Source of the DNA: Jiangella alba
GTDB lineage: Bacteria > Actinomycetota > Actinomycetes > Jiangellales > Jiangellaceae
Direction: 5' to 3'
Length of the DNA stretch: 64,000 bases
Assembly: GCF_900106035.1 (NCBI RefSeq)
Contig: NZ_FNUC01000003.1
Coordinates: 2,721,501 to 2,785,500, forward strand
Part shown: positions 13,436 to 55,825 of the stretch, one piece after another
Position numbering within the stretch: position 1 is the stretch's first letter
How the letters are laid out: each line of letters starts with the position of its first letter
The notes under the pieces: model-generated
What the model saw: only the letters and a program-made list of their open reading frames with translations
The model's database searches: none
Told to the model about the DNA's origin: nothing
Made by a program: the position numbers and the translations under genes

Positions 13436-15880
13436 TCACTCGTCGGCGTCGGCCGCTCCCAGGGCGGCGCGGGCGGCGGCCACCGCGTCCTGCTCGGCCC
13501 GCTCCCCCAGCGGCCCGCCGGTGTCGCCGTCCACCAGATAGAAGACGTCGATCGCCTCGGACCCGAGCGTCCCGACGACCGCGGACCGGATGTCGACGGC
13601 CGCGCCGCTGAGCGCCGTCGCCAGCCGGTGCAGCAGCCCGGGCTCGTCGTGCGCGCGCACCTCCAGAACCGTCGCGTCTGCCGACACGTCGCGCAGCAGT
13701 TGCACCTGGGGCCGGGCGTGCTGGATGACCCGGCCGCGCCACTCGGCCGCGCGGGCCGCCAGCCGCGTCGTCAGGTCCAGGTGGCCGGCCAGCGCCCGGG
13801 CGACGTCCTCGCGCAACCGCACCCCGTCCGGCCCCTCGCCGCGACGCGCCACCACCTGCCACACCTGCACGACGGCGTCGCCGGCGGTGTGCGCGCGCGC
13901 CGACCTGACGTCGAGCCGGTGCAGCGCCAGCACGCCCGCGACCACGCCCAGCACCCCCGACCCCCTCCCCGCGACGACGGTGACCGTCGCCAGCCCCGCC
14001 CCGTCCTCGTCCGGCGGCGCCACCTCGACCGCCAGCCCCGTGCCGACTGGCCGCATGGCCTCGGCCGCGGGCCAGGCTCCGTCCCCGTCGGCCGGATGGG
14101 TGCCGGCCGCCGACCCGGTCCTGGCCCCGTTCCCGTCGGCCGACGCCGGAGGCTCGTCCGCGCGCGCCGTGGTAGGTATGACCCGCCCCTCTAGGGAGGG
14201 TGCCCACCCTACGGGCGGGCACCGACACACTCCCGCCGACGCCGCCTCCCCCGCCAACGCCGTCTCTCCCGCCAACGGCACCGGCATCGGCACCGACGAC
14301 GTCGCCACCGCAGCCGAGGCGTCGGGCGCGAGGGCGCGCCGGGTCCGCTCGACAAGGTCGCCGACGAGGCGGGAGCGCAGCGGCGTCCACGCGACCGGCC
14401 CCGCCGCCGTGGCGTCCGCCTCCGTCAGGCAGGCGAGCAGCTCCAGGAACTCCCGCGTCCGCACCGCCTCGACCACCGTCGCGAGCGTCGCGGGGTCGTC
14501 CGGGTCGCGACGGGTGGCGGTCTCCGGCAGCAGCAGGTGGTGCCGGACCAGCCGGCCGAGCGTCGTGGCATCCGCCTCAGACAGCCCGATCCGCTGCCCG
14601 AGGGACGCGGCGATCGGCGATCCCGCCACCGAGTGGTCGCCGGGCACGCCCTTGCCGAGGTCGTGGACGACCGCCGCGAGCAGCAGCAGGTCCGGCCGCG
14701 CCACCCGGCGGGTCAGCCGCGACGCGACGACGGCGGTCTCGACCAGGTGACGGTCGACGGTGTGCCGGTGGACGGGTGTGCGGGTGGCGCGGTACCGGAT
14801 CCGCTCCCACTCCGGGAACCACCGAACGACCAGCCCGGCCGCCTCCAGCGCGTCCCACACCGGCACCGTTCCCGGCCCGGCGCCCAGCAGGCTGACCAGC
14901 GCGTCCAGCGCCGCCGGCGGCCACGGCTCGGGCAGCGGCGGGCACTCGGCGATCAGCCGGGCCAGCGTCCGCGGCCCCGGGACCAGCCCGGCCTGCGCCG
15001 CCGCCGCGGCGGCCCGCAAGGGCAGGACGGCGTCGCGGGCGGGGTCGGCGCCGCGGGCCAGCACGGCCTCGCCGTCGTACTCGTCGACGCCGTCGGCGAG
15101 GGGGCGGCGAACGAGGGGGCGGCGCCGTCCGCGCCGCTTCAGCCCGGCCAGCGTCCGTTCGACGTCGCGCCAGGTGACGTCCGAGGCGTACGCGATCGCC
15201 CGGCCGGCCTCGGCGACGCGGCGCAGCAGCAGGTCCGCGTCGGGCAGGCCGAGCCGCACCGCGACGTCGTCCTGGTTCTCGAACAGCAGCCGGTCCTGAC
15301 GCCGCCCGGTCGTGCGGTGCAGCGCGTCGCGCACCGTCAGCAGCCACTGCCGGGCGAGGTCGACGCCGGCGGTGCGGGGACGGTCGGCGATCCACGACGC
15401 CGTGACGGCCCGCAGCGCCAGCGTGTCGCGCAACCCGCCGTAGGCCTGGACGAGGTCCGGCTCCAGCAGATGTGCCAGTTCGCCCACGCTCGCGGCCCGC
15501 GAGCGGCACATCGCGGCCAGTTCCGGCAGCCGGACGGCGGCCTGCCTGCGCCAGCCGTCGCGGACCCCGGCCCGCAGCTCGTCCGTCAGCTCCTCGTCGC
15601 CGGCCACGTGCCGGGCGTCGATCAGCCCGAGCGCCGCCTTCAGGTCCGACCCGGCGACGGACAGCGCCTCGCCGGGGGTGCGCACCGAGTGGTCCAGCGC
15701 CAGCCCGGCGTCCCACACCGGGTAGAAGACGGCGTCGGCGACGGCGGCCGGGTCGCCGCGGCCGGTGACCAGCAGCAGCACGTCGAGGTCGCTGCCGGGC
15801 AGCAGCTCGCGCCGTCCGTACCCGCCGACGGCGACCAGCGCATACCCCTGCCGCGCGGCGGCCGGGACGTCCGCGAACAC
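13436..15880 (-). CDS. glnD: [Protein-PII] nucleotidyltransferase GlnD (start unusual)
   Basis: Bifunctional PII-modifying enzyme of 814 residues from the first standard start (GTG 15880). Nucleotidyltransferase motif GGYGRRELLPGSDLDVLLL at about 19-37, HD motif VVHDLGKGVPGDHS, and two C-terminal ACT domains that sense glutamine. In actinobacteria GlnD adenylylates PII. Homology begins earlier: a conserved-looking segment ending SELADGWLARVF extends 40 codons upstream to a CTG at 16000 that overlaps the glnB stop. Between the HD and ACT parts lies a roughly 100-residue Ala/Gly/Pro linker holding a repeat element (14186-14223). Confidence 0.9.
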   Translation of the reverse strand: MFADVPAAARQGYALVAVGGYGRRELLPGSDLDVLLLVTGRGDPAAVADAVFYPVWDAGLALDHSVRTPGEALSVAGSDLKAALGLIDARHVAGDEELTDELRAGVRDGWRRQAAVRLPELAAMCRSRAASVGELAHLLEPDLVQAYGGLRDTLALRAVTASWIADRPRTAGVDLARQWLLTVRDALHRTTGRRQDRLLFENQDDVAVRLGLPDADLLLRRVAEAGRAIAYASDVTWRDVERTLAGLKRRGRRRPLVRRPLADGVDEYDGEAVLARGADPARDAVLPLRAAAAAAQAGLVPGPRTLARLIAECPPLPEPWPPAALDALVSLLGAGPGTVPVWDALEAAGLVVRWFPEWERIRYRATRTPVHRHTVDRHLVETAVVASRLTRRVARPDLLLLAAVVHDLGKGVPGDHSVAGSPIAASLGQRIGLSEADATTLGRLVRHHLLLPETATRRDPDDPATLATVVEAVRTREFLELLACLTEADATAAGPVAWTPLRSRLVGDLVERTRRALAPDASAAVATSSVPMPVPLAGETALAGEAASAGVCRCPPVGWAPSLEGRVIPTTARADEPPASADGNGARTGSAAGTHPADGDGAWPAAEAMRPVGTGLAVEVAPPDEDGAGLATVTVVAGRGSGVLGVVAGVLALHRLDVRSARAHTAGDAVVQVWQVVARRGEGPDGVRLREDVARALAGHLDLTTRLAARAAEWRGRVIQHARPQVQLLRDVSADATVLEVRAHDEPGLLHRLATALSGAAVDIRSAVVGTLGSEAIDVFYLVDGDTGGPLGERAEQDAVAAARAALGAADADE
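14186..14223. repeat. Repeat element inside glnD, related to the 55.4-55.7 kb array
   Basis: The text CCCCTCTAGGGAGGG then CCCACCCTACGGGCGGGC matches the repeats at 55372, 55557 and 55696 (CCCCTCCCGGCCGGGAGGG then CACCCACCCTACGGGCGGGC) apart from a 3-bp gap and a few changes. Positions 14199-14223 can fold into an 11-bp stem with one A-C mismatch and a TAC loop. It lies in frame in the low-complexity linker of GlnD (about residues 552-566), so it has been inserted without breaking the gene. Confidence 0.75.
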
Positions 15881-55170: not shown

Positions 55171-55825
55171 CACGTAAGTGTTGTCCGGGCCGCAGCGCAC
55201 GTTCGGCCGGGCGGGCCGGTTTGGGGGCCGGCTCGCGGGCCGCCGCTCCTGCGCCGCCCCGCCCTCCAACCCGAGTCTCGACGGCGCGAGCGCATGGCCG
55301 CGCTCATCGGCTTGCCCGGAGCACGATGTCCTTCCGGCCGGGAGCACAGTGTCCTCGGCCATGAGTACGGGCCCCTCCCGGCCGGGAGGGCACCCACCCT
55401 ACGGGCGGGCCGGGTGAACCAGGCGTGAACCGCCGCCCCACACGACGACTCCCGGCCGCGACGACCACGCCAGCCCTGGGCCGATGACCGACGGGCCCCG
55501 GCCGCGACGACCACGCCAGCCCGCGCTGGTGACCAGCGGTTCGCCGGGAGCACAGGCCCCTCCCGGCCGGGAGGGCACCCACCCTACGGGCGGGCCGTGT
55601 GAACCAGGCGTGAACCGCCGCCCCACACGACGACTCCCGGCCGCGACGACCACGCCAGCCCGCGCCGGTGACCAGCGGTTCGCCGGGAGCACGGGCCCCT
55701 CCCGGCCGGGAGGGCACCCACCCTACGGGCGGGCCGGGTGAACCAGGCGTGAACCGCCGCCCGCACCGCCGACCCACCGCCGACCAGCCGGCGGCGCCGA
55801 CCGCGCTCGGGGTGAGCCGGCGCCA
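55171..55825. other. 655-bp non-coding region holding a GC-rich repeat array
   Basis: From 55171 to about 55370 I see nothing beyond GC-rich sequence without codon structure. From 55372 to about 55760 three copies of a repeat unit follow. The last part up to 55825 contains GCCGACCCACCGCCGACCAG-like short repeats before the aldo-keto reductase stop. Frames here read Pro/Gly/Arg strings that repeat with the DNA and are not believable genes. Confidence 0.65.
55372..55760. repeat. Tandem repeat array, three copies, with internal duplication
   Basis: Copies start at 55372, 55557 and 55696. Copies 2 and 3 are one 139-bp unit apart; copies 1 and 2 are 185 bp apart because a 46-bp piece beginning CCGGCCGCGACGACCACGCC is doubled inside copy 1. 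Each begins with the 18-bp perfect palindrome CCCTCCCGGCCGGGAGGG and continues CACCCACCCTACGGGCGGGC. A related piece stands in glnD at 14186, so the core disperses independently of the array. Confidence 0.85.

Follow-up and report, generated by a model that had tools for sequence, protein, structure and literature searches.

A palindromic repeat inserted in frame in glnD of Jiangella alba belongs to a family multiplied in Jiangella that carries a putative PafBC-type promoter

The glnD gene of Jiangella alba carries, inside its coding sequence, a short palindrome that also occurs in non-coding DNA, which raises the question of what kind of sequence has entered this gene and how. We addressed it in a stretch of 64,000 nucleotides (the window, G000:C3:2721501-2785500, where G000 denotes this J. 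alba genome). The glnD open reading frame is 814 amino acids long with the Pfam domains HD, ACT and GlnD_UR_UTase, and the element falls within the linker joining HD to ACT, where it is translated without a stop codon as GVCRCPPVGWAPSLEGRVIPTT. The initial annotation had described a dispersed palindromic repeat in frame in glnD whose core is common to three non-coding copies 41 kb away. Both points were borne out: the window holds four exact occurrences of the core CCCACCCTACGGGCGGGC (14203-14220, 55393-55410, 55578-55595 and 55717-55734). The span then assigned to the repeat, 14186-14223 (38 bp), was too short; it covers at least 14171-14227. The features are as follows.

13436..15880, minus strand: glnD, PII uridylyltransferase / uridylyl-removing enzyme, host of the insertion (open reading frame and Pfam)
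14171..14227, minus strand: whole repeat element in the glnD linker (coordinates, family alignment, orthologous copies)
14220..14227, minus strand: PafBC-type box TGTCGGTG (consensus in PMC5656591)
14206..14211, minus strand: -10 hexamer TAGGGT (TAnnnT), its T, A and T invariant in the hairpin-selected relatives
14182..14200, no strand assigned: hairpin directly 3' of the -10, with a CCC-N-CCC / GGG-N-GGG stem and a central mismatch
14203..14220, no strand assigned: searched core, an imperfect palindrome enclosing the -10 (core search)
55372..55430, minus strand: intergenic copy 1, with a GTTCAC-N5-GTTCAC direct repeat replacing the PafBC box
55557..55615, minus strand: intergenic copy 2, GTTCAC-N5-GTTCAC type
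55696..55754, minus strand: intergenic copy 3, GTTCAC-N5-GTTCAC type

The insert in glnD is one copy of a dispersed palindromic family that has multiplied within Jiangella. At up to two mismatches the core matched 126 times in G000 (65 forward, 61 reverse; reversed control 4) and 0 to 197 times in 11 other Jiangella genomes, with none in G003 and G005 and 197 in G010. Each of 28 genomes outside the genus had 0 to 4 matches, with 0 to 3 in the reversed controls, which is the chance level. The linker might instead be read as a low-complexity, tandemly expanding, GC-rich stretch that resembles the repeat by chance, and the flanking glnD linker is indeed repetitive and variable in length. Against this reading stand an exact 57-bp family match and orthologues with the element at the same site, where only 0.30 cores would be expected by chance in the window even at three mismatches; it is refuted by the copy number, and we give it practically no weight.

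We fetched the 100 exact core copies among the 126 matches in G000, and the corresponding census in G010 covered 101 of 148 exact copies. The unit is about 57-60 bp long, and the copies have in common two GC hairpins whose ends are similar and opposed. In the stem that follows the -10 (CCC-N-CCC/GGG-N-GGG), 82 of the 94 copies fitting the pattern have a central non-pair, and many copies read GTAG at the opposite end. At least 41 of the 100 G000 copies are common to G010 as judged by both flanks, so many copies predate the species.

Named glnD relatives at 75-88% identity come from Jiangella species. Among the named Jiangella glnD genes fetched, that of J. muralis has an identical element at the same position, that of J. 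rhizosphaerae an element of a different subtype and that of J. endophytica a decayed copy; G010 also has the element in glnD. It is missing from glnD of J. aurantiaca, J. ureilytica, J. anatolica and Phytoactinopolyspora halotolerans. The comparison of linkers that the initial annotation had proposed thus found presence and absence differing between Jiangella species, and relatives free of the repeat do not share the linker sequence: theirs are without the element. The linker (window 13900-14260) is also expanded well past the element, apparently by tandem duplication of short Ala/Gly/Asp-rich stretches, and more strongly so in J. muralis. For the protein, the gain of about 20 residues in a linker that is already variable is most likely neutral.

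Copies within genes are not confined to glnD. A count inside and outside genes had likewise been proposed, and it placed 81 of the 100 exact copies between genes, although coding sequence makes up about 91% of the window, and 19 within 17 genes, glnD among them. Genes were called with a purpose-written, codon-usage-based caller whose output was checked by eye on the window alone. All 19 in-gene copies keep the frame open. Five of the six possible reading frames are used, giving peptides of the types SVPARRVG, CPPVGW, PTLRAGTD, HPTGGHR and GGAPPYGRAP; inspection of the sequence showed the sixth to be closed by a TAG within the -10 hexamer. Because five frames are in use, no single peptide is under selection. 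The parallel with the Rickettsia palindromic elements (RPEs) drawn in the initial annotation therefore stands for behaviour, as in-frame palindromic insertions into unrelated genes are described for RPEs (PMC10969869, PMC3733652), and falls for the peptide: RPEs share one, whereas the Jiangella element is read in five frames and is mostly intergenic, and RPEs measure about 150 bp according to the review PMC10969869.

Domain scans of 10 of the 17 host proteins, plus GlnD, identified a LutA-like FAD/Fe-S oxidase, an APH-family kinase, two ABC proteins, TilS, a LysR regulator, a 2-oxoacid dehydrogenase acyltransferase and a UvrA-like ATPase, where we assigned the LutA-like and UvrA-like labels from the domain matches. 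In two of these genes, orthologous sites with and without the element prove in-frame insertion. The site in the APH-family kinase gene is filled in G000, G010 and G007 and empty in eight of the nine others, the sequence of G002 running off its contig. That in the FAD/Fe-S oxidase gene is filled in G000, G009, G004, G011 and G001, empty in G006 and occupied by the first part only in G008; the remaining genomes hold just more distant homologues. Across the LutA-like orthologues, 2 of 25 columns vary in box plus core and 645 of 2662 elsewhere in the gene, which is only suggestive of sequence constraint on box plus core. A gene resembling a WYL-domain regulator, in a region that also matches HTH_PafC weakly, likewise holds the element in frame (L070 1368-2501). 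Copies in coding sequence may survive where some 20 in-frame residues fall in linkers, loops or chain ends.

Between genes, the copies lie mostly 3' of genes and avoid divergent regions. With copies less than 600 bp apart merged into sites, G000 has 86 sites, of which 17 fall in genes and 28, 35 and 6 in convergent, tandem and divergent gaps, and G010 has 76 (7, 34, 27 and 8 in the same order). The convergent to divergent ratio is 28:6 in G000 (p 0.0002) and 34:8 in G010 (p 7e-5). The window's own intergenic classes (27 tandem, 12 divergent and 5 convergent) served as background and gave a Fisher p of 0.001; an earlier background was dropped because it had been drawn from regions beside copies and was hence biased. 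In the tandem gaps of G000, 19 copies run along the direction of the genes and 16 against it. Such a distribution could arise by insertion at many places with tolerance chiefly downstream of genes.

Read on the strand opposite the searched core, the copies take the form TTGTCRGTG-CCCGCCCG-TAGGGT. The motif of PafBC-dependent, RecA-independent DNA-damage promoters is tTGTCRgtg, 8 nt, TannnT (PMC5656591), and the consensus box, spacing and -10 of PafBC and recA P1 promoters of actinobacteria (PMC5656591, PMC11804915) are identical in the repeat. The exact TGTCRGTG is present in 72 of 97 readable core copies in G000 and in 76 of 101 in G010. In the glnD element the box has a G at the weak first t of the consensus and is followed at 8 nt by the -10, the two GC hairpins and an ACCTACC tail, all in the sense direction of glnD. 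The element thus looks like the carrier of a promoter switched on by DNA damage. This motif, the genome-wide copy number and the other in-gene copies go beyond the initial annotation.

A strict search for the motif in G000 gave 63 matches, with none in the reversed control. Individual reading of the 29 that fall outside exact core copies showed 18 with the hairpin and 11 solitary. All 11 solitary sites face a gene, 10 of them within 53 nt, and they include the PafBC-type promoters of recA (G000:C2:85930), uvrB (C2:294730) and thymidylate kinase, tmk (C4:1533511). PafB and PafC are encoded adjacently, as a WYL/WCX protein beside an HTH_PafC-WYL protein, followed by tatA. From these genes and the solitary gene-facing sites we conclude that the motif is real in the genus. 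At the tmk site, 6 nt only separate the -10 from the start codon. In G005, which is free of the repeat, and in G008, the members of a family of similar genes starting MFEEA (L126-L137) have PafBC motifs immediately in front of them; we take these genes to resemble DUF222/13E12 genes.

The exact motif match and the presence of the PafBC genes would also fit a large PafBC regulon in which the copies are genuine host promoters and the hairpins are regulatory structures in the 5' untranslated region. Only 33 of the 81 intergenic copies face the next gene, however, as against 11 of 11 solitary sites, 31 lie between convergent genes, and presence and absence differ among species. We regard this explanation as highly improbable; since the copies are not oriented towards genes, the putative promoter does not seem to serve its neighbours in general.

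As a test independent of the motif, copies were also collected by the hairpin GGCCCACCCGGCCGGGAGGGG (D-type) alone. This search found 14 G000 copies at up to one mismatch (33 are listed at up to two) and 33 copies in other Jiangella genomes, 30 of which were returned as loci. Upstream of the hairpin, TGTCRGT was present in 39 of 44 selected copies and the full motif in 31 of 44; the background rate in the window, for TGTCRGT within 45 nt, was 48 of 14214. TGTC was in range in 43 copies, of which 34 were distinct, and these were aligned on TGTC alone. The T, A and T of the -10 occurred in all 34, and the R position was G in 29 and A in 5, shared letters that partly reflect ancestry as the copies are related by descent. 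The letters between T, A and T vary, as do several of the eight spacer positions. On this comparison, the hairpin-selected copies reproduce the logo of the published motif, evidently retained while the surroundings changed.

This conservation pattern also bears on a simpler account, in which the family is an ordinary REP/BIME-type repeat of two opposed tagged hairpins, its TGTC end an unpaired REP tag and the likeness to PafBC promoters without function. Tagged REPs are described as being of similar size, with centrally mismatched palindromes, a location downstream of genes and in-frame intragenic copies, the last for GTAG- and CGTC-tagged REPs (PMC3733652). The GTAG at the opposite end of many copies fits as well, and the other end may be compared with CGTC/TGTC-tagged REPs. 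A tag alone would leave unexplained the -10 at exactly eight nucleotides with invariant T, A and T amid varying letters, the R position restricted to G or A, and the identical motif before recA and uvrB. We consider the account unlikely, though it deserves to be kept in view.

The copies are placed without regard to gene direction, yet their promoter letters are constant, which suggests that the promoter matters to the element itself or through an effect of the copies in bulk. In bulk, promoter-bearing copies might act as decoys that titrate PafBC or as a family of damage-induced small RNAs. Roughly 100 near-consensus sites not aimed at genes, and a hairpin at the expected start, are what either role would call for. 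Copy numbers from 0 to 197 among congeners, on the other hand, show no dosage being kept, no conserved RNA body extends past the hairpin and Rfam gave no match in the window; such a bulk role seems very unlikely. Within the hairpin, none of seven pairs showed compensatory change, the stems being invariant. With a GC hairpin so near the expected start, many transcripts may end at once.

A minority of copies, including members of the 55-kb group of the window, have a different head, GTTCAC-N5-GTTMAC, at a fixed distance before the same -10 TAGGGT, with the second half-site varying in a few. It was found in 10 of the 97 readable core copies of G000 and about 17 of 101 in G010, and consists of two 11-bp repeats ending a few nucleotides before the -10. 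The Streptomyces afs box, a SARP box, is described with a geometry near to this (PMC10936776), and the Streptomyces PHO box has GTTCACC as its core (PMC4415409); either likeness is a candidate one. A PHO box proper found no support in the four sites of the pattern outside the repeats, which have no obvious phosphate (Pho) genes behind them. Sigma adaptation has been reported for both PafBC and AfsR. The 55-kb group forms a local array with a 139-nt unit, 93% alike between two copies, and in G010 four copies of this type stand in tandem at a spacing of about 116 bp (G010:C1:770126-770492; L262 1500-1867).

How the family spreads was approached through candidate movers and insertion footprints. 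The search for transposases was made with the PF01797 family (Y1_Tnp; RAYT/IS200), which had no match in any of 12 Jiangella genomes and matched in 5 of 14 genomes in a control search; a RAYT/IS200 enzyme was therefore rejected as the mover. Among the 73 of 100 copies whose right end matches the tail pattern (27 were dropped), no target-site duplication was visible: flank similarity was 4.62 versus 4.46 for cross-pairs, and 35 of 300 shuffles were as high. Phages and plasmids were rejected as carriers, with no exact element in viral contigs and nothing similar in a plasmid collection. At G000:C1 near 51.8 kb (L001 1330-1560) and G000:C3 near 1624 kb (L043 1940-2250), two copies are interrupted at a CTAG that lies in the loop of their downstream hairpin. 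Genes for an rve-type integrase and a DDE_Tnp_1 transposase follow just beyond, so the palindrome appears to serve insertion sequences as a target.

Taken together, we consider it likely that the family is a REPIN-like, non-autonomous element of about 57-60 bp, multiplied in Jiangella, with a PafBC-type promoter on one strand, and that the glnD insert is one of its copies. Both promoter activity and the mode of dispersal we infer from sequence. The layout would be a TGTCRGTG box, 8 nt, a TAnnnT -10 and, after it, a GC hairpin where transcription should begin. PafBC activated by DNA damage would start short transcripts at many copies, and in glnD, where the promoter is aligned with the gene, damage should give an internal transcript spanning the ACT end. 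Copying would be carried out by an enzyme acting in trans, and, given an orientation indifferent to the genes around it, the promoter may be retained for the benefit of the element itself. A bolder proposal, which we hold as doubtful, is that this is a new kind of mini-element, joining an activator-dependent promoter to a hairpin and lacking a transposase gene of its own. Damage-induced firing would then be part of self-copying, selection on the element would keep the promoter, the boxes (PafBC or 11-bp direct repeat) would be exchangeable, and the copies would turn damage into transcription starts across the genome, including inside glnD.

The REPIN and REP doublets associated with RAYT (PMC8049555, PMC3733652) are described as short imperfect palindromes paired in opposite orientation, in 100-200 copies, favouring the 3' sides of genes and non-autonomous, and the Jiangella family resembles them in these respects. 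In contrast, it has no detected Y1_Tnp in 12 of 12 genomes and bears an activator-dependent promoter motif. The Correia elements of Neisseria (PMC10969869) are likewise miniature repeats that carry promoters, but theirs are described as sigma70-like and mostly immediately upstream of genes, whereas the Jiangella box is that of a DNA-damage activator and is not aimed at genes. The REP survey PMC3733652, in its available parts, does not name actinobacteria among its phyla, and the parts of the Jiangella gansuensis genome paper at hand report no such repeat. In a limited set of open-access literature, no title on actinobacterial REP/REPIN/RAYT, on Jiangella repeats or on MITEs with LexA or DNA damage dealt with such an element. 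Solitary PafBC-type sites of Jiangella precede genes closely in 10 of 11 cases, while the repeat copies do not.

REP-like repeats are common, and the reason for their persistence is open. The broad survey PMC3733652, in the parts available, left a promoter role of REPs untested, and a family with a recognisable, regulated promoter permits a direct test of what a REP-like repeat does under DNA damage. Actinobacteria also join the places where palindromic repeats are found in frame in proteins. Counts of PafBC targets based on the motif are inflated by repeats in such genomes, here by 52 of 63 matches. If the promoter is active, DNA damage may start transcription at many places in the Jiangella genome.
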